NCBI RefSeq assembly: GCF_021283545.2
Contig: NZ_CP128540.1
Span: forward strand, 1,833,501-1,897,500
Source: Pseudomonas alloputida
GTDB taxonomy: Bacteria; Pseudomonadota; Gammaproteobacteria; Pseudomonadales; Pseudomonadaceae
Direction of reading: 5' to 3'
DNA: 64,000 nt
The position numbers and the translations under genes were made by a program. Under the pieces are notes generated by a model. That model had not been told where the DNA came from. It did no database searches and was given only the letters and a program-made list of their open reading frames with translations. This document shows positions 25,685 through 40,743 of this stretch, in pieces. Position 1 is the stretch's first letter. Each line of letters starts with the position of its first letter.

Positions 25685-25799
25685 AGTGGTGGCCCCATCG
25701 GTCCCCCCGCATTGATTACCCGTTAACCTGGTCAGGCCCGGAAGGGAGCAGCCATAGCGGGAACATCGAGTGCCGGGGTGTGGCTGGTGGGGCCGCCTC
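25685..25799 (+). ncRNA. ffs: 4.5S RNA of the signal recognition particle
   Basis: The RNA partner of Ffh in co-translational targeting. The universally conserved apical domain is present: CCTGGTCAGGCCCGGAAGGG, AGCAGCCATAGCGGGA and TGCCGGGGTG. The 5' GGTGGCCCCATCGG pairs with 3' GCTGGTGGGGCCGCC to close the long hairpin. This copy keeps its promoter, so it should be the functional one. Its 3' part is now element-derived DNA identical to the displaced host sequence, because a mobile element has integrated here; a second, promoterless copy lies at the other end of that element. Confidence 0.92.
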
Positions 25800-25803
25800 C
25801 ATT
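25726..25803. repeat. attL: 78-bp direct repeat (left copy)
   Basis: Runs from ACCTGGTCAGGCCCGGAAGG to GGGGCCGCCTCCATT and is identical to the copy at 38779. It includes the conserved SRP-RNA apical loop and the 3' strand of the stem. Confidence 0.9.
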
Positions 25804-25849
25804 ACGCAAGTCCTTAATTTTAAAGGGCTTTGCTCGCTAAAAATCTCGA

Positions 25850-25860
25850 AGTGGACCAGT
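25850..25860. promoter_or_regulatory. Candidate integrase arm site near attL
   Basis: AGTGGACCAGT, identical to the first of three tandem copies near attR (38615), 46 bases inside the left repeat. Confidence 0.5.
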
Positions 25861-26066
25861 GCCGTAGTACACCTAAGTGGTGCACCGTGCTGAACATTCT
25901 AGCTTCGTCATCTTGCCTCTCCAATACCCTTCTCTGGTTACGCCTATCCCGGCGCAATCCTGTCATCCGCTCATGCGGCTGTTTATCCCTGCCTCTCACT
26001 GTGATTTGCAATTGCCAGTACGGTGGCTGTGCTACTAGGATGTGGCATCTGAGCGAGGAGCTAGAG

Positions 26067-27149
26067 ATGGAATTCGTAGAGCGACTGAACGCGTTATCAG
26101 CCAAAATCCGCCAGCAGGGTCCTGCTATCCAAACTGAAGAGGCAACCAAAATTGCCTTTGTCATGCCCTTCATCAACTCCGTTCTGGGCTACGACGTCTT
26201 TGATCCCTCGGAGGTGACCCCAGAGTACGTCTGCGACGTGGGGACGAAGAAGGGCGAGAAGATCGACTACGCCATAATGAAGAACGGCGAGATTCAGATC
26301 CTGATCGAGTGCAAGAAGATCGGCGAGCCGCTGCATATCAATCACGCGAGCCAACTCTTCCGGTACTTTCACGTTACCACAGCTCGTATCTCGATCCTTA
26401 CCAACGGCCAGGTATATCGGTTCTTCACCGACCTTGATGCGCCTAACAAGATGGATGAGAAGCCATTCTTGGAGCTGGATCTTCTAGATATAGATGAACA
26501 CGCTCTCCCTGAGCTTCAGAAGCTAACCAAGTCTGCGTTCGATGTTGACTCGATCATCAGTGCTGCTGGAGAACTGAAGTACGTTGGTCAGATCAAGAAA
26601 GAGATGGCTTCGCAGTTCAGTCAGCCTAGTGACGAGTTCGTGAAGTTCTTCGCTACTCGGGTTTACGACGGGATCATTACTCAGAAGGTTAGGGAGCAGT
26701 TCACGACCCTGACCCGTAAAGCTGCGATCCAGTTCTTGGGGGATCAGATCAATGACCGACTGAAGTCGGCCATGAGCGGTGCAGTTGAGCCTTCATATGC
26801 TATGGAGGCTGTGGAAAGTAGCCCGGTTTCAGAGTCTGCTGAAGATAATGCTGAAGACCAGATCCAGACGACACTTGAAGAGTTGGAAGGGTTTCATATC
26901 GTCAAGGCAATCGTTAGGGCGGTTGTTGATGCGAAACGAATTGTCCATCGTGATACTAAGAGTTATTTTGGGGTCTTGCTTGATGATAATAACCGCAAGC
27001 CAATTTGCCGCTTGCACTTTAATCGGAGTCAGAAGTACATTGGGCTATTTGACTCTGATAAGAATGAGACTCGACATCCAATCGCCTCCTTGGATGAGAT
27101 ATATGGCTTTGCAGAGCAGTTGAAGAGTACTATCTCCTTGTATGAGTGA
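26067..27149 (+). CDS. PD-(D/E)XK nuclease-like protein with HsdR N-terminal-type domain
   Basis: A 360-residue protein of the family often annotated as type I restriction enzyme R subunit N-terminal-domain protein. It is much shorter than HsdR and has no helicase motifs. The PD-(D/E)XK nuclease core is visible as Asp67 (KKGEKIDYAIM) and Glu81-Cys-Lys83 (ILIECKK), preceded by a helix with TEEATKIAFVMPFI. Start ATG follows GAGGAG with ideal spacing; an upstream frame extension has no ribosome site. It is the first gene inside the left end of the ffs element, followed by two HNH proteins, and GC is well below the chromosome. A restriction or anti-phage role is inferred; no methylase accompanies it. 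Confidence 0.72.
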   Translation: MEFVERLNALSAKIRQQGPAIQTEEATKIAFVMPFINSVLGYDVFDPSEVTPEYVCDVGTKKGEKIDYAIMKNGEIQILIECKKIGEPLHINHASQLFRYFHVTTARISILTNGQVYRFFTDLDAPNKMDEKPFLELDLLDIDEHALPELQKLTKSAFDVDSIISAAGELKYVGQIKKEMASQFSQPSDEFVKFFATRVYDGIITQKVREQFTTLTRKAAIQFLGDQINDRLKSAMSGAVEPSYAMEAVESSPVSESAEDNAEDQIQTTLEELEGFHIVKAIVRAVVDAKRIVHRDTKSYFGVLLDDNNRKPICRLHFNRSQKYIGLFDSDKNETRHPIASLDEIYGFAEQLKSTISLYE

Positions 27150-27276
27150 GTTTGCTTGCCGTATCCGTGTCGATGGTTATGGCGGCCTAGACACGGTTAA
27201 GGTGGTGTCTGAAGTGGTAGGGATTTGCTTAGTGGTCCTGCCTGCTCTGCTGTGATTTGTTGATTGAGGGGGATTA

Positions 27277-28416
27277 GTGAAAGAGTGTGTGCTTTGTGAT
27301 AGTCCTCTCTCGGACGCTAATGACTCCGAAGAGCACATTGTAATTAACGCTATTGGTGGGCGTTATAAAGTATCCGGTGTGCTTTGTGTGCAGTGCAACA
27401 ATGGTGCAGGACAGACTTGGGATAGTGCTTTGGCCAAGGATCTTCAGTCGCTGGGGCTGTTGATTGGGGTTAAGAGGGAGCGCGGAGTATTGCCCTCTCT
27501 CGCAGTTGAGAATCTCGATGGTGAACAACTATTGCTGCATGCGGATGGTAGCATGAGCCCGGCTAGAGCTAGTTTTAGTCAAACTCCTGAAAGTTATGGG
27601 TCGATGAGGATTGAGCTCGTTGCTCGTAGTGTTGAAGAGGCGCGTAAGATACTTAAGGGCGTTAAGCGCAAGTACTCTAACTTTGATTTGGAGTCGGCAA
27701 TTGCCAGCGCTGGCGTGCAGTCAAGGTATTCGAGGAGTCCACTGAGCTTCTCAATGGAGTTTGGTGGTGCTCTCTCGGGGCGCTCGCTCGTTAAGTCTGT
27801 ACTCTGCTTTGCTGTGGTTAACGGCGTAGTAGCAAAAGATTGTACCAATGCCAGGCAGTACTTGCTGGAGGACGGAGCAGAGGCATGCTTCGGGTATTGG
27901 TATGAAAGTGATCTGATGCTGCATAGACCGGAAGGAGTTCCTCTTCACTTTGTGGCAGTGAGTAACCAAGGCACGGATGGTCAGTTACTTGGGTATATAG
28001 AGTTCTTTGGCGTCAGGCGCATGGTTGTCTGTTTGGCTGAAAGTTACTCGGGTGCGGCTGTGCACGCTAGCTACTGCATTGATCCAAGAAGCTCCGAAAG
28101 AATAAATGTAGAGTTTGACCTCGGTCTAGATAGAGTCGATATCCGGGCTTCATACAACTACGATCGCATTCCAGATGGCAGCATTGAGCGTGCGTTTGAC
28201 TCTATATTGCGTCAAGCGGTTAAACGCTCAGCCGTTAAGGCAAGAGATCAAGCTATTGATAGGGCCGTACAGTATGCATTCAGCAACCTTGGTGTGGATG
28301 AGGGCGCCATTCTTACTGAGCGGGATGTTCAAAAGCTATCCGACTTGCTCATGCATGAGCTGACACCTTACGTTACACATGTCATTGGGAATAGGCGGCG
28401 ACGGGATGCGCGCTGA
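27277..28416 (+). CDS. HNH_5-type endonuclease-like protein
   Basis: A 379-residue protein whose first 45 residues form a zinc-binding HNH_5-like motif: Cys4-x2-Cys7, the EEH triad at 18-20, then Cys37-x2-Cys40-Asn. The remaining 330 residues are not recognised; they include a mixed alpha/beta stretch (FGVRRMVVCLAES) and an Arg/Lys-rich C-terminus. Translation starts at GTG right after a strong GAGGGGG ribosome site; no ATG is suitable. It lies 127 bases after the PD-(D/E)XK gene on the same strand. DNA or RNA cleavage as defence is plausible but unproven. Confidence 0.65.
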   Translation: MKECVLCDSPLSDANDSEEHIVINAIGGRYKVSGVLCVQCNNGAGQTWDSALAKDLQSLGLLIGVKRERGVLPSLAVENLDGEQLLLHADGSMSPARASFSQTPESYGSMRIELVARSVEEARKILKGVKRKYSNFDLESAIASAGVQSRYSRSPLSFSMEFGGALSGRSLVKSVLCFAVVNGVVAKDCTNARQYLLEDGAEACFGYWYESDLMLHRPEGVPLHFVAVSNQGTDGQLLGYIEFFGVRRMVVCLAESYSGAAVHASYCIDPRSSERINVEFDLGLDRVDIRASYNYDRIPDGSIERAFDSILRQAVKRSAVKARDQAIDRAVQYAFSNLGVDEGAILTERDVQKLSDLLMHELTPYVTHVIGNRRRRDAR

Positions 28417-28675
28417 TCTTGTTAGCGTATAACCAGTTTCTTCCAGGTTATCCTAGCTAAGTCGTGAAGTAGTTGGGATGATGGCGTAAAGCGTTGGTGG
28501 TCAGGGCCGTTCTCAAGGATGCTAAGCAGATTCCTTATTGAGGAATTATTGTTAGTGCCGCTAAGCTTGTAATCGTTTATTGTAATTGCGGCTAAATTCT
28601 ACTGTGGTGTGGTCTCTGAGCGGGGGTGGAGATGAAATTCGTAAAGCGGATAATTGCAGGGAATGGCCTGTGTCA

Positions 28676-29833
28676 ATGACTCCTGCGGAAGACGACGTGT
28701 TTACTGCCTTCTTGCGAGAGAAGGCAGCAGAAGCTCAGCGGGCTGTTAAGTACAAGCCTAATGAGTTTTTAAAGATGCTTGGCTCAATCGGTGGTTATAA
28801 GACAGCCGTATCACTGCTCACTAAGCCTAAGGTCTCCGATGGATTTACCAGGCTCTATCTGGAGCGTAGGCTGGATCTGACCGTTGAGGCAGTGATTCTA
28901 GAGAGTCGATGGGCAAGGTACTTTGACGAACACTTGATCTCATCTGCTGAAGAACGGCTTATCAAGGTTGGCTACACGGTCGTGCGGCCGGAGTTGAGTG
29001 CAGATGCTTTCTCAGGGGTAATGGATGAAACTTTAGATGTTGAGGTTTCGACTAAATCCTGTCTTGGTTCTGGTGTCAAGAGTTTGTCATTTAATGTTGG
29101 GCAAGAATACACCAGGGCGGGAGTATTTGCTTTGCTCGGCATTCCACGCCCCAATGGTGGTAAATGGTACACCGGGCATTTTGATCATGCCGGCAACCAC
29201 TTCTTGTTTTGCAATATAGGTGGTGCGGGTAGAACTGGTCACGATTATAATAATCACTTCATTGACGGTCGATTGGTTTGGTATGCTAGATCTGACGCTA
29301 AGTTGAGACATTCGCTTGTTTCCGAGCTGGTTAGTCAAGAAGGGATTGTCTTTGTCTTCTATCGTCTGGGTGATAGAGATCCATTTATGTTTGCTGGAGT
29401 CGCAACGCCATTTCAAGTGACGGACGCTACTGATGAGAGTCCTTTAAATGTGGTGTGGGATTTTAGCTCTCGGGATTTGCAGGATACGGAAGAGAATCCG
29501 GCCTCTATCACCGTCGTTGAAGGTGCTGCTTCAATGAAGTTGGTTAAGGTGTATGAGCGGGATCGTGGAGCTCGATTGCAATGTGTAAAGCGTTGGGGGC
29601 GGAAGTGCTTTGTTTGTAGCTTCGAGTTCGAGAAGGTTTATGGGGAGCTAGGCAAAGGGTTTATACATGTTCATCACCTTAAGCCTTTATCGGAACAAGG
29701 TGGGGAGTATAATTTGGACCCAGAGCAGGATCTGCGTCCGGTTTGCCCTAATTGTCACGCGATGCTTCATCGCTCAGTACCAGCGCTTACAATCGAAGAG
29801 CTTCAGCGTCAGATGTATCTGGCTTCTTTATAG
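28676..29833 (+). CDS. Two-domain HNH endonuclease with PUA/DUF3427-like reader, candidate type IV restriction enzyme
   Basis: A 385-residue protein in three parts. Residues 1-100 are a helical N-terminal domain (TAFLREKAAEAQRAVKYKPN). Residues about 144-245 resemble the DUF3427/PUA-like fold linked with modified-base recognition (EYTRAGVFALLGIPRPNGG, FLFCNIGGAGRTGHDYNNHF, FMFAGVATP). Residues about 300-370 are an HNH nuclease with Cys311-x2-Cys314, HVHHLKPLSE (331-340), Cys357-x2-Cys360-His361 and a last His365. The reader-plus-HNH layout is that of McrA-like modification-dependent nucleases. The ATG starting MTPAEDDV was preferred; 30 upstream in-frame codons show no homology. Specificity is unknown and the reader assignment is by eye. 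Confidence 0.68.
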   Translation: MTPAEDDVFTAFLREKAAEAQRAVKYKPNEFLKMLGSIGGYKTAVSLLTKPKVSDGFTRLYLERRLDLTVEAVILESRWARYFDEHLISSAEERLIKVGYTVVRPELSADAFSGVMDETLDVEVSTKSCLGSGVKSLSFNVGQEYTRAGVFALLGIPRPNGGKWYTGHFDHAGNHFLFCNIGGAGRTGHDYNNHFIDGRLVWYARSDAKLRHSLVSELVSQEGIVFVFYRLGDRDPFMFAGVATPFQVTDATDESPLNVVWDFSSRDLQDTEENPASITVVEGAASMKLVKVYERDRGARLQCVKRWGRKCFVCSFEFEKVYGELGKGFIHVHHLKPLSEQGGEYNLDPEQDLRPVCPNCHAMLHRSVPALTIEELQRQMYLASL

Positions 29834-30244
29834 TGTAATGCGTCATCTGGTGGCGGAGCTAAGAACCTTGGCTATTCGCTGTCGTCGCTAGTTTCAGTAT
29901 ATGGCAGATGCGGTCGTTAGCTAGGGCGCAGCTGCTCTATTGCTGAAGCTATTGCTTCCGAGGTAGAGTTCAGCGGTTCTAGCGCCGCCATCACGTTATG
30001 GTAGGCGTTCACGCTGGCTCGCTGTCGTAAAAGATACGGACTTCCTCGTTGAGTGCCTTTAACGCAGTCTGGTTCATCAGTAGTACTGGCGCGGTTCACT
30101 GAATGCTAGCTTCTCGCCACGGCCGCCCCTCTCTTGATTTTCAAAATTGACCTCTGCCCTTTGCAAATGACGCCCGCTATTCCAGGGTCGTAATATGCAG
30201 CGGGGCCGTGGGGAGTGGTGCTTAAAATCCAGCGACTGAGGGGC
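29834..30244. other. Intergenic region before the Tn402-like module
   Basis: About 410 bases without a supported gene. A 60-codon minus-strand frame (29917-30099) has neither a ribosome site nor recognisable homology. The last stretch abuts the inverted repeat of the module. Confidence 0.5.
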
Positions 30245-30269
30245 TGTCATTTTCAGAAGACGACTGCAC
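30245..30269 (+). repeat. Left 25-bp inverted repeat, Tn402/Tn5053-type end
   Basis: TGTCATTTTCAGAAGACGAC followed by TGCAC: the terminal sequence of Tn402/Tn5053-family transposons. A second 18-bp repeat of the inner motif (ATCAGGAGTCGGCTGCAC) follows at 30275, matching the repeated transposase sites of that family. Confidence 0.8.
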
Positions 30270-30275
30270 GGAATA

Positions 30276-30842
30276 TCAGGAGTCGGCTGCACTGGTGGAT
30301 TGCAGCGCGGTGTACAGGGCCGTCTTGCTCACCTTGAGCCGTGTAGCGGCCTCTCGGACATTAAGCCCGTTGGCGATGTGCTCCCGCGCTCGCTGCAACT
30401 TGTCGGCGGTGACAACCGGCTTTCGCCCGCCCTTCCTCCCACGAGCGGCGGCGGCAGTCAACCCGGCCTTGGTGCGCTCGCGGATCAAGTCGCGCTCGAA
30501 CTGGCCCAGCGCGCCGAACACGTGGAAGATGAGCCGCCCGCCTGGCGTGGTGGTGTCGATGGCTTCCGTCAGAGAACGGAAGCCGACGCCTCGCGCTTCC
30601 AGCGCGCCTATCGTTTCGATTAGGTGCGGCATAGAGCGCCCGAGCCGATCCAGCCGCCAGACGGCCAGCACGTCGCCGTCGCGCAGGTAGGCCAGCGCAT
30701 CAGCCAAGCCGGGGCGGTCGGCCTTGGCCCCGGAAGCCGTGTCCTCGAAAACGCGCTCGCAGCCTGCCTTGCGTAGCGCATCCGTCTGCAAGGCGGTGTC
30801 CTGTTCCGCCGTCGATACCCGCGCATAGCCGATCAGTGCCAT
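30276..30842 (-). CDS. Serine recombinase (resolvase), TniR/TnpR type
   Basis: A 188-residue small serine recombinase that resolves transposon cointegrates. The N-terminal catalytic domain has the nucleophile Ser in MALIGYARVSTAEQD, the conserved LAVWRLDRLGRS, and FGALGQFERDLIRERTKAGL with the E-helix. The C-terminus has a helix-turn-helix (LNVREAATRLKVSKTALYTAL). Start ATG follows GAGAGG; an upstream extension is non-homologous. The stop lies seven bases inside the Tn402-type end, and the res-like sites lie just upstream, facing the toxin-antitoxin genes. Confidence 0.9.
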   Translation of the reverse strand: MALIGYARVSTAEQDTALQTDALRKAGCERVFEDTASGAKADRPGLADALAYLRDGDVLAVWRLDRLGRSMPHLIETIGALEARGVGFRSLTEAIDTTTPGGRLIFHVFGALGQFERDLIRERTKAGLTAAAARGRKGGRKPVVTADKLQRAREHIANGLNVREAATRLKVSKTALYTALQSTSAADS

Positions 30843-30879
30843 TTGCCGCCTCTCTTGTCCGTCATTCCGTCCGCCTATC

Positions 30880-30962
30880 TTAATGTCCGACAACCCGTTG
30901 TGCAATAACTTTGCTGGACAGTGTCCGGCATGGCCGACTAATGATCGTTTGACGGACATTGA
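30880..30962. promoter_or_regulatory. res-like recombination region
   Basis: Repeated TGTCCG/CGGACA half-sites between the resolvase and antitoxin genes: TGTCCGACA near 30882, TGGACAGTGTCCGG near 30913, GACGGACATTGACGG near 30951. This spacing pattern is usual for resolvase sub-sites. Confidence 0.6.
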
Positions 30963-31023
30963 CGGTAAGGCATTTTTGCATTACTATGTGAAGCATCAAC
31001 CTTGATTGCGAGGGCAAACCACC

Positions 31024-31275
31024 ATGACCACATTGACCGTTACCGCACGGGGACAAGTGACGTTTCGGAAGGACGTACTGCAACACCTCGGCATCAGGCC
31101 AGGCGACAAGATCGAGCTGGACTTGTTGCCAGACGGTCGGGGCGTGCTCAAGGCGGCACGGCCCGCAGGGACGATAGCCAGCTTTGTCGGCCTGCTCGCG
31201 GGCAAGACGCAGAAGGTTGCCACCATCGAAGAAATCAACGAGGCGGCGGCGCAAGGCTGGGCAGGTAAGCAATGA
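31024..31275 (+). CDS. vapB: AbrB/MazE-family antitoxin (VapB type)
   Basis: An 83-residue antitoxin with an N-terminal swapped-hairpin AbrB domain (TLTVTARGQVTFRKDVLQHL, then GIRPGDKIELDLL), which binds its own promoter, and a C-terminal tail that would wrap the toxin (TIEEINEAAAQGWAG). The stop overlaps the toxin start as ATGA. It lies within the Tn402-bounded module, downstream of the res-like region, and probably stabilises the element in its host. Confidence 0.85.
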   Translation: MTTLTVTARGQVTFRKDVLQHLGIRPGDKIELDLLPDGRGVLKAARPAGTIASFVGLLAGKTQKVATIEEINEAAAQGWAGKQ

Positions 31276-31667
31276 AGGTCGCAGTCGATACCAACGTCCT
31301 TGTGCGTGCGGTTGTGCGTGACGATCCCGCACAAGCGGACGTTGCCGCCGCAGTCTTGACCGACGCCGAGTTGATCGCGGTCGCGCTGCCGTGCCTATGC
31401 GAATTTGTTTGGGTGCTGCTGCGTGTCTACGGCTTCCAGCAAGCCGACGCGGCCAGCGCGATCCGGGCACTACTGGCCGCCGCGAATGTGGAAGTGAACC
31501 GGCCTGCCGTGGAGGCTGGCTTGCTGGTGCTCGACGCGGGCGGAGACTTTGCCGATGGCGTCATTGCCTACGAAGGCAACTGGCTTGGCGGGGAAACCTT
31601 CGTTTCCTTCGATAAGAAGGCGGTGGCACTTCTCACGGCGCAAGGGCAATCAACGCGCCTTTTGTGA
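31272..31667 (+). CDS. vapC: PIN-domain toxin (VapC type)
   Basis: A 131-residue PIN-domain ribonuclease. The four acidic active-site positions are visible: Asp in VAVDTNVLVRAVV (residue 6), Glu44 in PCLCEFVWVL, Asp93/Asp97-region in AGGDFADGVIA, and Asp115 in FVSFDKKA. VapC toxins cut tRNA or rRNA loops when the antitoxin is lost. It overlaps the antitoxin gene by four bases and the next gene by four, so three genes form one operon. Confidence 0.88.
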   Translation: MKVAVDTNVLVRAVVRDDPAQADVAAAVLTDAELIAVALPCLCEFVWVLLRVYGFQQADAASAIRALLAAANVEVNRPAVEAGLLVLDAGGDFADGVIAYEGNWLGGETFVSFDKKAVALLTAQGQSTRLL

Positions 31668-32215
31668 CGGACATGAGCATGAACGAATTCCGCCGACTGG
31701 CCGCGAAGATCGACCAACACATGCAGCAGCTTGCCGCCCAGGGTGTCAGCGAGGCCCATGCCATCATCAATCGCATGATGGGGTACGGGCCTGACCTGCA
31801 CAGGATTTGGGTCGGCACATCCGATCAGCAGCTCATGGCGCTGTCCCGCGAGTTCCCAGGGTTCTACCGCTACGCCCGCATCATGGAAGAGGCATCCGAA
31901 GCCGAGCGCCGCAAGGCTTCGCGGCCCTATGACGGCATGGCCGAGTTCTCCGAACAGCACAAGCAAATGGGCGCGCAACTGCTGACCACGGCGGCCACGC
32001 TTGAGCGTGGCTACCAGGCGTTTCGTGCGAGCGGCAGTCTCCAAGACTTCCGGCCTCAGCTCGACGAGCTGGGCCGCCTGCATCGGCAATGGCTGTCCGA
32101 CCTGGAAGCCTTCAAAGACTCGCTGCGCACGCAGGGCGCAGAACCCAAGGTGCTGGAATACGTGAACGAGGCTTTCGGCCGCCTGGCCGAGCGCATCAAG
32201 CAGCTTGCCGGTTGA
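31664..32215 (+). CDS. Unknown 183-residue protein coupled to vapBC
   Basis: Not recognised. The protein is soluble and largely helical, with GYGPDLHRIWVGTSDQQLMA near residue 45 and a heptad-like second half (LRTQGAEPKVLEYVNEAFGR). The GTG start overlaps the vapC stop (GTGA), matching the coupling used between vapB and vapC; ATG codons three and five codons later are alternatives. Its place inside the Tn402-type ends suggests it travels with the toxin-antitoxin pair. Confidence 0.6.
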   Translation: MTDMSMNEFRRLAAKIDQHMQQLAAQGVSEAHAIINRMMGYGPDLHRIWVGTSDQQLMALSREFPGFYRYARIMEEASEAERRKASRPYDGMAEFSEQHKQMGAQLLTTAATLERGYQAFRASGSLQDFRPQLDELGRLHRQWLSDLEAFKDSLRTQGAEPKVLEYVNEAFGRLAERIKQLAG

Positions 32216-32296
32216 TCGCCGGAATTTTCGGCGGTTCCGGCTTTGTCGCGCCGTGCACAAGAGTTCTGAGCAATTCCGATCTCTCGCGGCGCTTCG

Positions 32297-32338
32297 TGCA
32301 TAGAACTTCTGACCGTTCCCGGTCAGAAGTTCTATGCA
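32297..32338. repeat. Perfect 18-bp inverted repeat
   Basis: TGCATAGAACTTCTGACC, six-base loop GTTCCC, then the exact complement. A weaker relative (AGTTCTGAGCAATTCCGATC) lies at about 32261. There is no T-run, so it is not a classical terminator; it lies between the last module gene and the right Tn402-type end. Confidence 0.8.
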
Positions 32339-32364
32339 CACACGGCGGCCAGCCCAGTGAACTG

Positions 32365-32389
32365 GTGCAGTCGCCTTCTGAAAACGACA
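32365..32389 (-). repeat. Right 25-bp inverted repeat, Tn402/Tn5053-type end
   Basis: On the minus strand TGTCGTTTTCAGAAGGCGAC then TGCAC, two mismatches to the left end. The continuation CAGTTCACTGGG also resembles the inner part of Tn402-type ends. Confidence 0.8.
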
Positions 32390-32547
32390 ACCAGCTGTGG
32401 TCGGTTAGGTAGAGGCCAATGAATACATGGCGGGAGTGAGCCTGTACGACGGTTGAGACTCTTTCCGACTAGAGGTGCTATGAGTGATCTTGATGGTTAG
32501 TCACTTCAGGACTAATACTTGGGTGTCTGCCAGGGGAGGCATCAGAG

Positions 32548-32784
32548 ATGCAACCGAGATTTGTTCTTGTCCCGGCTGTTCCTGTCGAAAGTAATTCATT
32601 CCGTGTAGGTACGAGGTTCTACGCTGAGACGGTTTCAGCGGGCTTTGATATCTATGACAACCAAGAGAAGGTGAGGCTCAAGCACCAGTTCCCTACTAGG
32701 CAAGAAGGGGTTGAAGCCTGTGCCAAGATGAATGCAGACGCTCGTAGTCCTAATGAGCGATTTCCGGTACTGAGAGCTGAGTAG
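32548..32784 (+). CDS. Small hypothetical protein
   Basis: A 78-residue protein with no recognised family. It has alternating hydrophobic strands (FVLVPAVPVESNSFRVG, YAETVSAGFDIYDNQEKVRL) and a final helix (GVEACAKMNADARS). A good GGGGAGG ribosome site precedes the ATG. It stands alone just outside the right Tn402-type end and is within the ffs element. Confidence 0.5.
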   Translation: MQPRFVLVPAVPVESNSFRVGTRFYAETVSAGFDIYDNQEKVRLKHQFPTRQEGVEACAKMNADARSPNERFPVLRAE

Positions 32785-32797
32785 TTGAACCCGAAGC

Positions 32798-33067
32798 CTA
32801 TAGACCTGTTGGCGGGCTCGCCCCGTCACCATCATTGGCTGGCTGGAACCTCCTACCTGAGATCTCCGTGAGAGCCCCGATTGCTGGTTCGATCTCGTAG
32901 CTGGAGTCCAGAAGCCTCTTGGATAGCTGCATTACCCGTAAAGCCTGATCAGGGTGCCCGGTCTCCGTAAGCAGCAGCGCCAGGGCATGAAGGGCCTCGC
33001 ACATGGCCATTTGATTACCCCAGAGGCGTGTTACCACTGTGGTGATGCACACTTCTTGTTCCGACAT
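32798..33067 (-). CDS. Small hypothetical helical protein
   Basis: An 89-residue protein, unrecognised, predicted all-helical (NQMAMCEALHALALLLTETG, PDQALRVMQLSKRLLDSSYE), the shape of a single TPR-like pair. A strong GGGAGG site lies seven bases upstream of the ATG. It converges with the preceding small gene. Confidence 0.5.
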   Translation of the reverse strand: MSEQEVCITTVVTRLWGNQMAMCEALHALALLLTETGHPDQALRVMQLSKRLLDSSYEIEPAIGALTEISGRRFQPANDGDGASPPTGL

Positions 33068-33358
33068 GACGTTTGCCTCCCTGCTCTCCGATCACTACCG
33101 CAGCTCAGTAGCGCTGCTGGCTGCATAAATAGTGCCCCTAGGGTTCTTCGCCGGGTGAGTGGAATGCTGAGCTGCCTCTAATTCCATGCCAATCATAAGG
33201 TTAATGCTTCAGAAGGCCCTTTTGCTTGACTCCGCTCGTATCAATCCCAGCATTCATAGGGGGTAGAGGTAAGGCTAGCTGTCAGAGACGCACGCATAGG
33301 GCTAGTTGGCGATTAGCAACCTATTAGATAAAGCGTTGGCGTGTAGTGGCTTGGGGGC

Positions 33359-33589
33359 TCACATGCCTTCGAAGAGAGCAGAGATGCTGACGCCCAGGGC
33401 ATCGGCCAGCACCTTGATCGCGTTAATGGAGGGGTTTGCGCCCCCTGTCTCGATGCGAGACATATACGTCCTGGCGAAGCCACACCGATCAGCAAATGCT
33501 TCCTGACTCATGCCCATAGACACACGCAGCTCCCTGACTCGGGTGCCGAACTGGTGCTGAAGCGCTGGAGACGGAGGGGGTGCAGGCAT
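33359..33589 (-). CDS. XRE-family HTH repressor
   Basis: A 76-residue Cro/CI-like DNA-binding protein consisting of one helix-turn-helix domain: FGTRVRELRVSMGMSQEAFA, RCGFARTYMSRIETGGANPS, INAIKVLADALGVSISALF. Such single-domain regulators often control integrase or toxin genes of islands, or phage lysogeny. Two direct CTAATCG repeats lie just upstream of its start. The next plus-strand gene is 280 bases away and may be its target. Confidence 0.8.
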   Translation of the reverse strand: MPAPPPSPALQHQFGTRVRELRVSMGMSQEAFADRCGFARTYMSRIETGGANPSINAIKVLADALGVSISALFEGM

Positions 33590-33613
33590 TCCCCAATGGT
33601 CCAGAGATGTGAT

Positions 33614-33635
33614 CTAATCGGACACACACTAATCG
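33614..33635. promoter_or_regulatory. Direct repeats CTAATCG, candidate operator of the XRE regulator
   Basis: CTAATCG at 33614 and 33629, 15 bases apart, just upstream of the regulator start. Confidence 0.35.
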
Positions 33636-33786
33636 TGACATCGAGATGCTGATCGACCTCAGCCTCTGAGGATTGGTGTCAAGGGTGAAGGCTAGACCTA
33701 TGTCTCTCTGCCAAGGTAGGCACGAGCTGGCTTGGTTGTTAGCTTTGCCCTGTAGCTCGCGTGAGGCGTGAGCTGTAAGTCCCCTG

Positions 33787-33830
33787 GTAAGTCAATCAGT
33801 AAGAAACCCAGTAAGACCGTAAGACGTAAG
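33787..33830. repeat. Five GTAAG iteron-like repeats
   Basis: GTAAG at 33787, 33799, 33811, 33819 and 33826; the first three are exactly 12 bases apart. They lie just upstream of the winged-helix gene. Confidence 0.6.
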
Positions 33831-33867
33831 GCCACAGACCAAACCTACCTCTCACTGGAGAATACTG

Positions 33868-34215
33868 ATGAGTGACCAACACGTTCCAACCCGCGCCGCC
33901 TCTGATGGTGATCAGGACAAGCTGTATGTTAACCAAACCACTTTTGCGGAACTGGGCAACCTAAGCCTAGTAAATCCTCAAAATGTGTCGGTCATGCTGA
34001 CTCTGATGTCTGTTGTTGGCAGTAATGGCATTGTACAGATCCCACAGGCAGCACTGGCAGACCATTGTAAGATCACGTTAAAGGAACTCGGGAAAGCAAT
34101 TGCTGACCTTACTGCGTTAGGAGCGATTAGCTCTGTAGAGCTTAGCCCTGAGCGAGGTGGTTTGTTCACTTGTGTGGTAAGCCCGGAGCTCGTAACGACA
34201 GAGAAGCCTGAGTAA
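33868..34215 (+). CDS. Small winged-helix DNA-binding protein
   Basis: A 115-residue protein whose residues 25-110 look like a winged helix: SVMLTLMSVVGSNGIVQIPQ, AALADHCKITLKELGKAIAD, LTALGAISSVELSPERGGLF, resembling RepL-type or MarR-like folds. A GGAG site precedes the ATG. Iteron-like GTAAG repeats lie immediately upstream, so a self-regulator or replication initiator role is possible. Inference only; sequence identity with known initiators could not be tested. Confidence 0.55.
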   Translation: MSDQHVPTRAASDGDQDKLYVNQTTFAELGNLSLVNPQNVSVMLTLMSVVGSNGIVQIPQAALADHCKITLKELGKAIADLTALGAISSVELSPERGGLFTCVVSPELVTTEKPE

Positions 34216-34456
34216 TACGTGTAAACTCTGGTCATCTTATGTTGGTCTGTCTTGGCTGTTCTTCATGTTGAAGCATGGCAGCCAGGGCAGATCATACCAA
34301 CTCCATCGGCTGGTTACCTGGCTGATTATCGTCAGTACCCTCTGCCCAGCTTCAGACCAAATTCTGTTTAAGCAAGGGTAGGGCGGATGCGTAGCAGAGA
34401 TATACATCTATGCCCACTCGGGCAGTGAACACTTTCAGAACCTAAAGGATATTGTT

Positions 34457-35113
34457 ATGGCAAGGACCTTCCGCAACCCTGCGAATGGACACGTTGAAGA
34501 AGTGAGCGGGGAAGCTGCTGGACTGGTAATACTGCTTGGTCCCATCTACCTTGCATTTAAGGGCCTCTGGGGGCACTTCTTCCTATGGCTGCTTGTGGTG
34601 GGAGGCTTCTCGTTAGCAACTGGAGGGTATGGAATTGTCTTTGCTCTACCTATCGCAACCATCGCTTATGCAGCAACCATAAACAAGATGATTGTAAACT
34701 CCTACCTCCGCAGGGGTTGGCAAGAAGTACACGTAGAAGCAGATCAGACTACAGGCCAGGCAGTTGTAACTATCAGCGGCCAGAGAGACTGCCCCTATTG
34801 TGCGGAGCTGATCAAGGCCCAAGCCAAGAAGTGTAAGCATTGTGGTTCAGAGGTAGAGCCTCTGGCTCAAGGGGATTCAAATACTGTTAGTAAAGAGCAA
34901 TGGTTTGTAACCTTGCCCTTCGCTTCTAATAAGGAGTGCAGAGAGATAACTGATAAGGTTCGAAGCAGTGGTTATGAAGTGCCATCAGAGACTTCTAAGT
35001 ATATCCGGGTAGGCCCTTATACTACTGAAGCCCTGGCTTCTAATGCTCTTCACTCGCTTGCAGGTGATCTTGGCCTTCAAGGTGGCGCCTTAGAGAGTGC
35101 TTCAGCTCTGTAG
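34457..35113 (+). CDS. Membrane protein with zinc ribbon and SPOR-like domain
   Basis: A 218-residue protein with an unusual layout: two membrane helices at about 20-40 and 45-70 (LVILLGPIYLAFKGLWGHFF, FFLWLLVVGGFSLATGGYGI), a zinc ribbon at about 113-132 (CPYCAELIKAQAKKCKHCGS), and a C-terminal SPOR-like fold (EQWFVTLPFASNKECREITD, KVRSSGYEVPSE, IRVGPYTTEALA) at 148-210. SPOR domains bind septal peptidoglycan when periplasmic; here the zinc ribbon sits next to it, so topology is unclear. Function unknown. A hairpin follows the stop by about 12 bases. Confidence 0.6.
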   Translation: MARTFRNPANGHVEEVSGEAAGLVILLGPIYLAFKGLWGHFFLWLLVVGGFSLATGGYGIVFALPIATIAYAATINKMIVNSYLRRGWQEVHVEADQTTGQAVVTISGQRDCPYCAELIKAQAKKCKHCGSEVEPLAQGDSNTVSKEQWFVTLPFASNKECREITDKVRSSGYEVPSETSKYIRVGPYTTEALASNALHSLAGDLGLQGGALESASAL

Positions 35114-35823
35114 TTTGCTAGGGAGTGGGGCAGAGCACAAGCCCCACAAAGCTATATGGGATTACTGCTGCTTTATATGTAGTGACGTAGCCGTCACGGC
35201 GGATTACTTTGAGTGAAAGCCAGAAGAAGAGCAGGGTGGTGCTGCTCCACTCCACCCCTGATTGAAGAGTTAACCTGCGCCTGTAGGCTTGGTTCCTTTA
35301 GTGGGCAGGGGAGCAACAGCCCAATATACCTTTGGTTCAGCTCTCTCATTAACCTGTGACGCACCGTCACGTGCTAATACACCTATGCCGCTGGGCATAA
35401 TTAGGATCAAGAGCTAAAGCGAAGAGGGGCAGCACAGCCCCTTCCTCTCCTTCTGGTGATAGAGTTGATATCTCGCCTCACGGCATGTTTGTAGCTGGGG
35501 GCAGGGCGGAAAGCCCCCGGAGCTTTTGATCTTAACCTTGCAGATATACGGTGACGGCCCGTCACGCAGTAATAACTTTTAAAGGAGTAGAGCAAGATCA
35601 AGAGCAAGGGGCTTGCTTGCCCCCCTTCTCTGCTGCATAGAGGTGTTAATCGTGCTTCAGGCACGGTCTGTCCTGCCATGGCGTAGACGCCATGATGTAA
35701 TTTATTAATGGTCAAATTCTGTCGTGTCTGGAATTGCCGTGTCATATAGTATGGTAGGCGCGGTTTACGACTTCCAGACAAATAGGAATGGATCTCGACT
35801 CTAGAAGCTTCGGGTTGGAGAAA
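35114..35823. other. Palindrome array between two convergent genes
   Basis: A 710-base region without a gene. It has three GTGACG-N3/4-CGTCAC palindromes at 35182, 35356 and 35551 (174 and 195 bases apart), each followed within about 45-65 bases by a purine-rich tract and a second GC hairpin: GGTGG-type near 35240, GGGGC-AGCACA-GCCCC near 35425, GGGGC-TTGCTT-GCCCC near 35610. A fourth such hairpin (GTGGGGC...GCCCCAC) lies at 35125. Units are degenerate, about 175-195 bases. Confidence 0.75.
35182..35565. repeat. Three GTGACG...CGTCAC palindromes
   Basis: Six-base arms conserved exactly in three copies (35182-35197, 35356-35370, 35551-35565) while the 3-4 centre bases vary (TAGC, CAC, GCC). 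This pattern suggests protein recognition or RNA hairpin pairing. Confidence 0.8.
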
Positions 35824-36621
35824 CTAGATCCATTCCTGGGCCTCAACGAAGTCAAGGAAGTGATCACGTCCAGACGGCTCAGGATAGTAGTCTGGTTTCT
35901 CAATCTCACCGTGCCACGAGAATTCCACGTCAGGGTTGCCTTCAAGCTCACCTACTAACTTTGTTGATCTATTCAATAGCTTTTGGATGGGCTCCTTGCC
36001 GTAATCAGGCACCGCCAGCTTCCAGAGAAATCGTAATGTTGCGTAACGTTGCTTGATGCGAGCTACCACTCCGTCATCGCTGTCATCCCCTTGTCTGCTT
36101 CCATGAACTGCCATGTATTCGGCTACATACTCTTCAATCCGGCTATTAAGGTCCGATGCGGCACTGACCATAAAGTTAAAGCTTGCGCGGGGAGAGCATT
36201 CATCAATCCAGTCTGCTATGAAGATTACGTTGCTGCCTTCCTCGAGTGCCCGCTCTCGTGCTTTCGCTTTAATGCGTTTGATGGTGTCTTGAGTGTAATT
36301 GCTCTCGTAGTAGCCATTTGAGCAGTCCCACGTGCTACGGTATTCCTGGTGTAGGATGTCGCGTAGTTCGTAGTCCCTAATGCCGTTGGTGCGGCAAGCC
36401 AGCGGATACACTCTTTCGAAGGTTCTATCAAACGGTTTGAGTATCTTTGGTGCTCTTTGCAATGTCTTCTTAGGCTTCACAATTCCCTTCGTTAATGCCT
36501 TGATTCGTCGCTCGGGTACGCCTGTCTCATCTTTGATCTTGTCGTAAGCCATTCCTTCATTGCGAAGTTCGATAACTCGGTGCTCGGCGGGAGTTGTTGG
36601 AGTCGTGTTAATTGTACTCAT
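35824..36621 (-). CDS. HTH-containing protein of unknown function
   Basis: A 265-residue protein, unrecognised. Residues about 12-45 look like a resolvase/transposase-type helix-turn-helix (HRVIELRNEGMAYDKIKDET, GVPERRIKALTKG). The rest is mixed helical (FIADWIDECSPRASFNFMVS, RIKQRYATLRFLWKLAVP). It starts after AAGGAAG; the frame extends 19 codons upstream without a ribosome site. It ends beside the palindrome array, so it could act on that DNA. Codon use is low-GC like the rest of the island. Confidence 0.5.
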   Translation of the reverse strand: MSTINTTPTTPAEHRVIELRNEGMAYDKIKDETGVPERRIKALTKGIVKPKKTLQRAPKILKPFDRTFERVYPLACRTNGIRDYELRDILHQEYRSTWDCSNGYYESNYTQDTIKRIKAKARERALEEGSNVIFIADWIDECSPRASFNFMVSAASDLNSRIEEYVAEYMAVHGSRQGDDSDDGVVARIKQRYATLRFLWKLAVPDYGKEPIQKLLNRSTKLVGELEGNPDVEFSWHGEIEKPDYYPEPSGRDHFLDFVEAQEWI

Positions 36622-37278
36622 GGTTCTTCCTTGATTTAATTGTGTGCAGGTGCAAACCTCCGATCTTCCTGGCGGCATAGGAAACGATTGGCCTAATAGC
36701 AGGCAGCACGAAACCCGCTCTGCTCAGTGGCCTATTGGCTTGAACAAGCGAGATAGTGATCTAGTAGGGGAGGTGTTGCGGATGTCAGTGGCTCTGACAG
36801 GGTGGGGATGATACAGATTTGTTTTGGTAAGTCAAGCGATAAGTTGGTGGCTAAGTTTAGGGCGCCTACCGTGATGTATATTGCAGCATGGATCATGCTG
36901 CAACTAAGCAAGCTATGTAAGCCTGGTTGTAAGTTCGCTATGGGGCTGTGATGCTATTTGCGTGGCTGCCAATCATTTCGTTGCTGAAGCCCAGGCGGTG
37001 CAGGGGTCATTCACGCCCCTGAACGGTTTGGCGACTTGCGCTTCCAGTCGCGCTATCGGTCGGTGACGCTGGCTCGCAGTGGAGCACTACAGCCGGTCGC
37101 CTCCTTCGTTCATATCCCTACCAATCTTGGAGTGTCCCGCATGTCGTTCGTGTGGAGCTTGCCAGCTACCTCTGCAATCTCAGGGCTACTCATGGCCAAC
37201 GACGTATCTGGACACCCTGCGTTGTAGGTTGCCCAGAACAGTCATCGCTTGATGCTTGGCCTCACGTCGTAGTATCGA
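36622..37278. other. Intergenic region between HTH gene and integrase gene
   Basis: About 660 bases without a supported gene. It contains a perfect 10-bp inverted repeat with 3-bp centre (see next entry). The 37036-37227 plus-strand frame has no ribosome site and no homology. Confidence 0.5.
36881..36903. promoter_or_regulatory. Perfect palindrome TTGCAGCATG-GAT-CATGCTGCAA
   Basis: 23 bases, arms of ten with no mismatch, about 260 bases upstream of the HTH gene. Operator or recombination-accessory site; binding protein unknown. Confidence 0.5.
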
Positions 37279-38601
37279 CTACCAACGAGGTCTGCAAGCC
37301 GTTGCTGTCATCGGTATTGTAAGCAGCGCCTCCAGCATCGCCTTCAGAGGCGTACGGCTGCCATAGACACTGAACGTAACGGCTGCATCCTCGTGGCCAG
37401 CAATACGCTTGATCAGGGAGTCCTGCACCCCGGCGTCACGTAAGTCGTCAATGAGCGTATGGCGGAAGCTGTGAAAGGTCTTGCGGGGATCGGTGATACC
37501 TAGCTTTGTCTTATATCGACCGAACCACTTCGATGGGGCATGGCCCAGCTTCCCTCGAACGGCTTCCAACTCAGGGAATACTCGATCAGCGCCGCTAGCT
37601 TTGACTGATTCAACGTACTGAAGCAATCCCATGTCTAAAAGGGCTGAGTGCAGAGGTAGCAAGCGACGACTGCTGGCGTTTTTCAGGTTCTGCCCTTCAC
37701 GGCTGTCATCAATGCGGATGCACTGAATCCCCTGTTGCTCAGTGAAATCATCAACCCGCAATTGGCACAGCTCTTCCAGTCGCGCCCCAGTAACTCGTCC
37801 CATTAGAGGCAACCAGTAACGCCACGGGTGCTTGCGTGCTTCCTTCCATAGCGCCTCATGGCTCAGCAGTGCAGTCAGATCATGGCGGTCAAATGACAGG
37901 CGTGCTTCCTTTGCTGAGCCCGTCATGACCTTCATCCCAGCCAAAGGGTTCTCAGCGACATACCCGTTGGCCTTGCACCAGTTCAGGAAGGCAGTGAGCT
38001 TGCGTAGCCGGTTGTTCACCGTCACGGCGGTGATGGTCTTGTAGGTGCTGCCCGACTCGACCACCTGCCTCAGCGTTTTGCCCTTGAACTCTGGGCGTAA
38101 GCCAAAGTACTGGGGGCAGCGGCTGAGTCGCTCTTTCAATAAGCGTGCTTGATGGGCATCAAAGGCTGCCGCTGGCATGTCACCCATCAGCTCGAAAAGG
38201 TCAGCTAGGGCGCGTTCTACATCGTCGATACTGCCTTGCCGCCATGTGCCACCGCGTTTGCCTTCTGCAATATAAAGCTTGGAAAGGGTTGCCAGGGCAG
38301 GGCTGCTACTTGTTTGCTTCGCTGTGGGGCCCGAAGCGTGCTGTAGAGCAGTGTGAATGACTGGCATGGGGGACGAGTCACGCAACTGCATGCAGAGCTC
38401 ACGGAGCATCTCAGGGGGCGTCAGGGGGTGTTCGCATAGGTGCTTGCTCACTTGCTCCACTAACGATGTTGCGAGAAACAGAGCAACCTGCCGCTCTCGT
38501 ACTCGCAGGGAAATCCGAAGGGTATGGCGGTTGGGGAACAGATGCTTCGGTAGTCGAAGGTTGAGGTAGTAAACGGACTGGCGGCGGACGATGTAGGCCA
38601 T
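37279..38601 (-). CDS. int: Tyrosine-family site-specific integrase
   Basis: A 440-residue integrase responsible for insertion into, and probably excision from, ffs. The C-terminal catalytic domain shows the first Arg in RVTGARLEELCQLRVDDFT, the H-x2-R motif in FHSFRHTLIDDLRDAG, and the late His and the nucleophile Tyr in AGHEDAAVTFSVYG. An SAM-like core-binding domain precedes it (about 170-280). The start chosen (MAYIVRRQSVYYLNLRLP) leaves 178 bases to the attR repeat; a longer in-frame start would run through the arm-type repeats. The ribosome site is weak. It is transcribed away from attR, into the element. Confidence 0.9.
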   Translation of the reverse strand: MAYIVRRQSVYYLNLRLPKHLFPNRHTLRISLRVRERQVALFLATSLVEQVSKHLCEHPLTPPEMLRELCMQLRDSSPMPVIHTALQHASGPTAKQTSSSPALATLSKLYIAEGKRGGTWRQGSIDDVERALADLFELMGDMPAAAFDAHQARLLKERLSRCPQYFGLRPEFKGKTLRQVVESGSTYKTITAVTVNNRLRKLTAFLNWCKANGYVAENPLAGMKVMTGSAKEARLSFDRHDLTALLSHEALWKEARKHPWRYWLPLMGRVTGARLEELCQLRVDDFTEQQGIQCIRIDDSREGQNLKNASSRRLLPLHSALLDMGLLQYVESVKASGADRVFPELEAVRGKLGHAPSKWFGRYKTKLGITDPRKTFHSFRHTLIDDLRDAGVQDSLIKRIAGHEDAAVTFSVYGSRTPLKAMLEALLTIPMTATACRPRW

Positions 38602-38614
38602 GAATGAACACCAG

Positions 38615-38651
38615 AGTGGACCAGTAAAGTGGACCAATTGAGTGGAACAAT
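38615..38651. repeat. Three 13-bp-spaced arm-type repeats near attR
   Basis: AGTGGACCAGT (38615), AGTGGACCAAT (38628) and AGTGGAACAAT (38641), exactly 13 bases apart, immediately upstream of the integrase gene. A copy of the first lies near attL. Confidence 0.75.
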
Positions 38652-38732
38652 TCTGGTCACACCCCGAGTCTTGAGTGCCCGTGCTGACTAGCTGCACGAG
38701 TAGATGGCATGCTACCTCATCAGCCTGAAACC

Positions 38733-38852
38733 CTTGCCCCATAAGGCCCGCATTGATTATCGAGCATGCTTGCATGCTACCTGGTCAGGCCCGGAAGGGA
38801 GCAGCCATAGCGGGAACATCGAGTGCCGGGGTGTGGCTGGTGGGGCCGCCTC
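38733..38852 (+). pseudogene. Promoterless degenerate second copy of ffs
   Basis: The 3' part is the 78-bp repeat. Upstream, element DNA still resembles the 5' half of ffs (GCCCCAT, then CCCGCATTGATTA shared exactly), but the bases before the repeat are replaced by a palindrome AGCATGCTTGCATGCT. No promoter like that at 25628 is present, so this copy is probably silent. Confidence 0.65.
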
Positions 38853-38856
38853 CATT
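38779..38856. repeat. attR: 78-bp direct repeat (right copy)
   Basis: Identical at all 78 positions to the copy at 25726. Sequence diverges at once on both sides. Confidence 0.9.
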
Positions 38857-40287: not shown

Positions 40288-40555
40288 CGGGCTGTCTATT
40301 CTGTTGCGGCGAAGGTGCTGGGGGGCGGGCTTGATTGTGTGCGGTTTGGTTCGGTCGCGAAACCGCCGTCTTCCAGTGAGTGTTGTAGTCCAATTGCGAT
40401 CAAGATCGTCATGTATGTCACGTCGGAGTAATTTTAGACGGATCTGATATCAATCGAAGAAAGCTCCTACATGTCAGGTAGGTATAGCGAATTATCCTAC
40501 GATCTCCGTCGACTCCCGCCTGATTGTCCCGGTCAACCTCGCCCACTAGGCTTTT

Positions 40556-40743
40556 TCGGTCGCTGTCAGTTCAGCGATCGGGTGTGGAAGCCTGGGTGGT
40601 TTGGCGGCTGTCGATATGACGGTTGTGCGTGGGAGGCCTTCGGGCCTGCCGGGTTTGCCATACCCCTGGTCTTCCACCCCGCGTACAACTGTCACCCTAA
40701 GTGTGGAAGCGAAAGGGTGCTATCAGCCCGGTATGGTGAACTC
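40556..40743 (+). ncRNA. Structured leader upstream of a DUF3077-like gene
   Basis: No gene in these 190 bases, but the sequence looks strongly structured: AGGCC-TTCG-GGCCT hairpin with a UUCG loop at 40634-40647, TGGAAGCC and GGTCTTCCACCC as possible partners, and CTGTC-N-ATGAC repeats. From memory, similar leaders precede many paralogous DUF3077-type genes of Pseudomonas; this needs a search. Confidence 0.45.

Follow-up and report, generated by a model that had tools for sequence, protein, structure and literature searches.

Islands in which a tyrosine integrase targets an RNA gene, restores that gene at one end and leaves a displaced fragment of it at the other have been described, and the ffs islands reported here resemble that system in all three respects, judging from the relevant passages of PMC4383910. 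The dusA-targeting integrase family offers a second parallel, since it too is bound to a single conserved gene (PMC4482086), as we find for the clade at ffs, the gene for 4.5S/SRP RNA. The TIGER/Islander text has only tRNA/tmRNA, protein-coding, and intergenic site classes and makes no mention of ffs (PMC12424338); the resource itself probably contains ffs islands. In the literature searched, including passages of the few candidate papers, we recognized no report of the ffs/SRP RNA gene as an integration site. Based on our findings, we propose, with a probability of roughly 0.94, that the element in our window (the whole 64,000-nucleotide stretch of Pseudomonas alloputida DNA analysed) is a site-specific integrative island and that its tyrosine integrase comes from a clade linked with the 3′ end of ffs.

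Structure of the island and its two ffs copies

The first-pass annotation had claimed that identical 78-bp repeats bound about 13 kb of DNA with an integrase at one end, and we confirmed both the repeat and a tyrosine integrase ORF. The direct repeat is exact (25726-25803 and 38779-38856, 13,053 bp from start to start), consists of the 3′ region of ffs, and occurs at these two places only in the whole genome; its 53-nt core has no third site in the window at up to 3 mismatches (0/100 shuffles). The features of the island are as follows.

25696..25792, + strand: complete ffs (4.5S/SRP RNA), attL, host promoter side retained; RF00169 79.1 bits, model 1-97; fold z -5.3
25726..25803, + strand: left repeat copy, 78 bp, direct and exact
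25806..25833, + strand: element-supplied hairpin directly 3′ of ffs, read from the element sequences
25850..25858, + strand: left arm-type site AGTGGACCA, place conserved (within 1 nt) in 32/34 elements
25830..27149, + strand: ORF of an HsdR-N-type nuclease protein whose real start is probably farther in; PF04313, E 2.2e-12
27277..28416, + strand: HNH endonuclease; PF14279, E 1e-11
28586..29833, + strand: HNH protein, type IV restriction-like; PF01844, E 4.8e-7; PADLOC mREase_IV, E 8.3e-6
30242..32392, no strand: nested transposon-like unit, 2.15 kb, terminal inverted repeats of 28 bp; near-identical plasmid copies
30276..30959, - strand: small serine recombinase (resolvase) within the nested unit; PF00239, E 4.1e-47
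31024..31667, + strand: antitoxin (AbrB/MazE-like) with PIN toxin (VapC-type), both within the nested unit; Pfam matches weak to moderate, plasmid annotation
34457..35113, + strand: zinc-ribbon protein, cargo; PF13248, slightly below cut-off
35824..36678, - strand: cargo protein without Pfam match; cluster in 3/34 elements
37279..38775, - strand: tyrosine integrase ORF, likely start about 38601 (MAYIVRR); PF00589, E 1.6e-13
38615..38649, + strand: right arm array AGTGGACCA, AGTGGACCA, AGTGGAACA, spacing 13 bp
38763..38778, + strand: small palindrome (hairpin) just 5′ of the right repeat; stems vary, pairing kept across elements
38779..38856, + strand: right repeat copy, attR, truncated ffs; exact repeat; fold z +1.3

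An Rfam scan of the window returned one complete small SRP RNA, at the left end, and this copy folds far better than its shuffles; for the right copy, 181 of 200 shuffles folded equally well. A complete ffs stands at the left end, a truncated fragment of it at the right. The target is RF00169 and no tRNA or tmRNA gene lies in the window, which sets the island apart from the tRNA/tmRNA islands of Islander. The G+C content per kb is 0.48-0.62 within the island (26-38 kb) and 0.55-0.69 outside, overlapping ranges that make the contrast valid for most, not all, of the island. The claimed rarity of ffs as a target agrees with our survey of 274 sampled gammaproteobacterial genomes, whose filters drop some weak matches: an SRP RNA family match was present in 244, and two matches were present in the window genome only.

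Association of the integrase clade with ffs and the probable point of crossover

The integrase ORF begins 3 bp from the right repeat copy, and the motifs TGAR, HSFRH, and GHE..Y, which we take to be the catalytic motifs of a tyrosine integrase, are visible in it. Because many relatives have stops in the matched stretch, which we place ahead of position 38601, the true start is likely to lie near that position and not at the ORF start. Within the genus, 31 of 398 genomes carry an integrase match with 44% identity or more across at least about 290 aa, and in all 31 a piece of ffs stands beside its 5′ end, always at the same end and either overlapping it or within about 190 bp, counting from where the match starts. 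The named loci L032-L062 likewise have an ffs piece there, in 31 of 31 cases. Close relatives of the integrase adjoin ffs, a point that the earlier annotation had put up for checking, and what we saw elsewhere were fragments of lesser length or relatives farther removed (at most 42% identity). The count of 31 omits shorter pieces (at least 45% identity, 105-167 aa) in G024, G166, G289, G178 (second contig), G316, and G319, of which those in G024, G166, and G289 adjoin ffs pieces. Four other fragments (L063-L066), C-terminal pieces 81-87% identical, had no ffs in the DNA examined. Among the distant relatives, one (L067, 42% identical over 168 aa) lies less than 1 kb from a tmRNA gene and two still more distant ones (L068, L069) less than 1 kb from tRNA genes, and a lineage only 33-39% identical is also found at ffs. 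In the integrase tree, which has long branches and a bootstrap that had not settled, ffs lineage B groups with the tmRNA-adjacent and one tRNA-adjacent relative; the two ffs lineages may or may not share one origin. Beyond the genus sample, both IMG/VR contigs carrying the integrase have an adjoining ffs (2/2), the 75 plasmid and 13 phage records that match it are all below 60% identity, and at E<=1e-40 the clade is absent from the 273 other sampled gammaproteobacterial genomes. Related islands at ffs number in the dozens across Pseudomonas and its sister genera.

Empty sites were found in three related species (G227, G390, G117), where a single ffs, and not both copies, is joined to both flanks, exact to the base. 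Target-end direct repeats, a border integrase, a restored target gene, and empty sites in relatives, which mark an integrative island, are seen here. No excised circle or same-strain empty site was seen among the assemblies. Two candidate circular contigs (L058, L108) were rejected: in both genomes the ffs matches found stop at one common point, where the contig ends, and do so on other contigs as well, so that the repeat is probably where these assemblies broke.

Across elements, differences between the left and right copies fall at nt 30-67, at nt 82 (one element), and from nt 93 onward. In two informative elements the left copy is host-type up to nt 94 (L038) or nt 93 (L056) while the right copies carry other bases, which suggests a crossover after about nt 93-94 of ffs and led us to reject one at the repeat's left border, around nt 31. 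For the window element, whose two repeat copies are identical, we infer the place of the crossover. The ffs-like stretch of the right copy before this point would then be the element's own. With a crossover near nt 93-94, the host would retain nearly the whole of ffs, and the island would add its last bases and the hairpin. The first-pass annotation had held that ffs is preserved by the element's copy of its 3′ part; the left gene is indeed complete and folds, but the restored part would be far smaller than was supposed.

We suggest the following mechanism for the insertion. The integrase would pair attP, an element site with an ffs-like stretch, with the chromosomal ffs, and strands would be exchanged close to the final bases of that gene. 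On the host side the promoter and gene body would be kept, the island side would supply the last few bases and the downstream hairpin so that ffs stays whole, and the displaced fragment would come to lie at the far end. The island would also be able to excise and transfer. The probable binding sites of the integrase are the arm-type repeats near the two ends: the left motif keeps its place in nearly all of the 34 elements with both ends, and the density of the motif, which was picked from the same sequences in which it was counted, is 3.8 per kb in element ends and 0.015 per kb elsewhere, with none at the right end in 5/34. The hairpin at 25806..25833 is terminator-like in some relatives and has its stem altered on both sides in some; a pattern scan for terminators did not call it.

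Alternative origins of the locus

The least probable reading is that the island arrived by homologous recombination or by duplication of ffs, with the integrase adjoining it incidentally. Many right copies do match the host subtype, and those of L119, L128, L130, L132, L135, and L137 match ffs back to nt 1-19, which suggests that gene conversion has since acted between the copies. Against this reading stand the integrase's constant end and short distance from the ffs piece in every genus-sample carrier, the fixed left arm motif, and the base-exact empty sites. It is also very improbable that the element brings a complete alternative SRP RNA and that its right copy is expressed as an additional, modified 4.5S RNA. 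The right copies of L119 and L049 are full-length and score as SRP RNA, those of L128, L132, L130, and L044 also exceed the cut-off, and main-type right ends have ffs-like sequence from about nt 12 plus an added paired palindrome. The window's right copy, however, lacks an upstream ffs promoter region, and its failure to fold better than shuffles led us to reject it as a functional second SRP RNA.

Unlikely, though less remote, is an origin from a larger prophage or conjugative element, of which the island would be the remains and which would have used ffs by chance. In one relative (G057) the ffs copies lie 72 kb apart, and 58% of the islands in a large resource are uncategorised by gene content (PMC12424338). 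Against this, the 34 two-ended elements, which do not include G057, span only 2.7-19.6 kb, and no phage structural or conjugation family appeared among the 25 listed of 68 Pfam and 25 listed of 97 PHROG families from 96 cargo proteins. Packaging, capsid, or helper-hijack genes did not appear among those listed PHROG families. A scan of ten proteins, nine from the element and one from a flank, showed no relaxase or type IV secretion protein.

Cargo, significance, and comparison with known systems

A small serine recombinase is present in 32/34 elements, mid-element and on the integrase strand in 31 of the 32; at 45% identity these proteins fall into groups of 15, 9, 3, 2, and 2 plus the window's own. 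The latter belongs to the nested transposon-like unit, near-identical copies of which occur on plasmids. Relatives of the HsdR-N-type gene occur in 5/34 elements, the window element counted, and the zinc-ribbon cluster in 4/34; the other cargo is mostly private and partly defence-like. It is conceivable, though we hold it doubtful, that the ffs islands form a distinct two-recombinase family in which the tyrosine integrase docks at ffs and an exchangeable serine recombinase (at least five divergent subgroups) is part of the machine, making ffs a standing entry for defence genes in Pseudomonadaceae. If so, the serine recombinase might resolve multimers or swap cargo blocks; its near-constant pairing with ffs islands poses a testable question.

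With ffs, the landing sites of mobile DNA come to include the gene of a structural RNA that is essential, single-copy, and not a tRNA, and the island shows how a target gene stays whole after insertion. As a chromosomal hotspot that recurs across the genus with one integrase clade, it is a place to seek defence-type cargo, and genome engineering in Pseudomonas could use the integrase together with ffs as a landing site. In this regard, Ppu_Y-Int_1 of Integrase-On-Demand belongs to an island of 9.9 kb in CP010979.1, a record that also yielded Ppu_Y-Int_2, has a 66-bp attB in P. putida S12, and is functional in S12 and KT2440; the main text passages leave its target gene unnamed (PMC12884075). 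Protein P0098, 79% identical to the window integrase, is a candidate for Ppu_Y-Int_1, whose target may then be ffs. As far as the cited passages go, our islands differ from the system of PMC4383910 in that the target is ffs, and from the dusA family, which targets the 5′ end of a protein gene, in that the ffs clade targets the 3′ end of an RNA gene (PMC4482086). The ffs islands are a known kind of element, the RNA-gene-targeting island, with ffs as a new target gene, and possibly a two-recombinase variant.

The island at ffs and its empty counterparts

About 13 kb of DNA, mostly lower in G+C than its surroundings, lies between two copies of an exact 78-bp repeat that covers ffs, the SRP RNA gene, from nt 31 to 11 bp beyond the gene; no third place for this repeat was found in the genome.

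25696-25792: ffs, small SRP RNA gene, the sole complete one in the window
25726-25803 and 38779-38856: the exact 78-bp repeat
42143: dnaX, right flank
44228: ybaB, right flank

Compared with shuffles, the left copy folds much more stably (z -5.3), and the right copy, an ffs fragment, shows no such gain (z +1.3). Only 3 bp separate the right copy from the start of a tyrosine integrase ORF on the minus strand. The right flank, with dnaX and ybaB, is ordinary chromosome. The interval from ffs to dnaX also holds a C4 antisense RNA with its a1/b1 target motif (40546-40699), in chromosomal DNA beyond the island.

For the empty site, both window flanks were joined around one ffs and set against 25 loci that include the right flank, one of them the window's own. 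Three of the 25 (G227, G390, G117) have one full ffs, contiguous with the flanks to the base: G227 is 85% identical in the left flank, 100% in ffs and 88% in the right flank, and ffs identity is 99% in G390 and 98% in G117. G278, G340 and G218 have a single ffs and flank with about 35 to 155 additional bases, and the close relative G081 holds a different 8.9-kb island at the same place.

An integrase clade beside ffs

In our first genus sample, ffs was present in all 199 genomes, with two matches in 27, counting G007, where one gene is in two pieces. A long match to an integrase of the window's clade adjoins the extra copy in 18 of the 27; G185 has a distant relative of the integrase instead, and 8 lack an intact integrase of this kind, with fragments in G024 and G166. 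Across 398 genus genomes the integrase query matches 95 at E<=1e-20 and 31 at 44% identity or more over about 290 aa or more, and an ffs piece lies beside the integrase 5' end in 31 of these 31. This count includes a match split in two (G323) and several frames with stops, which mostly precede the likely start; it omits all weaker matches and shorter pieces of 45-84% identity (G024, G166, G289, the second contig of G178, G316, G319); the short pieces in G024, G166 and G289 adjoin ffs pieces. A named set of 38 loci shares at least ten genomes with the 398, so the counts are not additive: ffs is present in the first 31 (L032-L062), and none was seen within the locus sequence examined in the other seven, which are integrase fragments (L063-L066) and distant relatives (L067-L069). 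The fragments are C-terminal pieces 81-87% identical to the window-clade integrase; part of a different integrase adjoins in L066 and lies within 10 kb in L065. Two IMG/VR contigs likewise carry integrase and ffs.

Among 59 Pseudomonadaceae genomes, 56 have an ffs match and six have two: in G712, G725 and G735 a 54%-identical integrase adjoins the extra copy, and in G694, G734 and G740 an integrase 31-40% identical lies near an ffs. Under stricter filters, RF00169 was found in 244 of 274 Gammaproteobacteria, with two matches in the window's own genome only, and the window-clade integrase was found at E<=1e-40 in none of the 273 other sampled Gammaproteobacteria. In G057 (C1:3156416-3228854, loci L109-L112), 72 kb separates two ffs copies, with one window-clade integrase and five serine recombinase matches; the stretch is an ffs island that is large or has been invaded repeatedly.

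Five further ffs loci (L102, L105-L108), of a lineage we call B, have integrases 33-39% identical to the window's, each adjoining the 3' end of the left ffs copy and reading away from it. In L102, L106 and L107, the loci that carry both copies, the repeat spans approximately the whole gene. Arm-like repeats follow the second full copy in L102 (after 6812) and L107 (after 10997), as though another lineage B island, or what is left of one, lay in tandem. Among the closest relatives situated at other genes, L067 (42% over 168 aa) lies within 1 kb of tmRNA, and L068 and L069 lie within 1 kb of tRNA genes. The integrase tree is compatible with ffs use having arisen once or twice.

Crossover position and element ends

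We compared left and right copies in the 34 elements with both ends available. Differences are confined to nt 30-67, 82 (L053), 93-94 (L056, L038) and about 95 onward; the window's copies are identical to nt 108. In L038 the left copy has GCAGCGGTGAC at 58-68 and A at 94, matching five of five genomes of genus g23, whose right flank sequence L038 shares and which we infer from that flank to be its genus; the right copy carries the P. putida-type ATAGCGGGAAC, with G at 94, and continues into g23 flank. L056 shows the same pattern at nt 59-67 and 93. In L038 and L056, then, the host retains nt 1 to 93-94 and the crossover falls just after. In every aligned native ffs of sister genera, nt 1-2 can pair with nt 93-94, G-T allowed. 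Beyond the crossover, the element contributes the last ffs bases and a hairpin. This hairpin, in whose stem changes on both sides preserve pairing in some relatives, is probably a terminator; a pattern scan called none in the window.

With the crossover after nt 93-94, the ffs sequence that precedes nt 94 in the right copy belongs to the element. Right copies often match the host subtype there, which suggests gene conversion between copies, and in some the match to ffs reaches nt 1-19, which fits such conversion. In L049 and L119 the right copy has full length and scores as complete SRP RNA, and L119 shows two copies of this kind.

A putative arm site, AGTG[GT][AG][AC]CA, follows ffs at the same place in 32 of 34 elements. 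Near the right end, two or three sites spaced 13 or 26 bp occur in 18 of 34, at 202-254 bp from the end; another 11 carry one site in that position (one with a second further in) and five have none. In the window this array directly precedes the likely integrase start. The motif, derived from the same sequences as counted, occurs 96 times in 25 kb of ends vs 10 times in 681 kb elsewhere (both strands). Directly before the right repeat lies a small palindrome (38763-38778 in the window); 38 of 44 right ends retain five or more of these pairs vs 6.5% of shuffles, scored identically as the best of several registers with G-T allowed; stem sequences differ, and CTTG is the commonest loop.

Serine recombinase, cargo and comparison with known islands

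The integrase is present in 34 of 34 elements and a small serine recombinase in 32; in 31 of the 32 it shares the integrase's strand. L098, without one, is 2.7 kb, barely more than the integrase; L101 has a short fragment only, and its integrase is broken. At 45% identity the recombinases form groups of 15, 9, 3, 2 and 2 plus the window's own, and one representative from each group matches PF00239. This family has 108 matches in 59 genus genomes. For genomes of about 6 Mb this amounts to about 0.3 per Mb, which predicts about 0.1 across the 366 kb of element DNA; G039 and G049 have no such gene other than the island's. The recombinase is also present in partial islands (L033, L036, L041, L043, L049, L055, L117), the three islands with 54%-identical integrases and lineage B loci L102, L106, L107, L108 and L198; none was found in the portion of L105 examined. 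The window's own gene is weak evidence for this rule: it lies inside a nested 2.15-kb transposon-like unit (30242-32392) that is nearly identical on plasmids (796 records match, 331 at 99% or more, and 158 cover 80% or more of the unit), and the window may therefore have lost a resident one. The unit has 28-bp inverted repeats and a VapC-type toxin-antitoxin pair in addition to the recombinase.

ORFs of 80 aa or more number 378 in the 34 elements and form 230 clusters, of which 180 contain one ORF each. Apart from the integrase and serine recombinase clusters, the cargo has 98 representatives that are 165 aa or longer; we scanned 96, all but two window ORFs. Among the 25 of 68 Pfam families listed are HNH (3), reverse transcriptase (2), DarT, NADAR antitoxin, HamA, AbiJ, a DncV-like synthase and an ABC-3C domain. 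PADLOC matches 239 families, those listed being mostly reverse-transcriptase models matched by two proteins. The window's cargo includes an HsdR-N-type protein and two HNH proteins.

The P0098 integrase is 79% identical to the window's, and its record may be CP010979.1, the source of Ppu_Y-Int_1 (PMC12884075). Functional data for the clade may already exist through Ppu_Y-Int_1. In the literature searched, whose coverage is incomplete, we found no report of ffs as an integration target. Mechanistically these elements behave like islands in tRNA and tmRNA genes; the target here is ffs.
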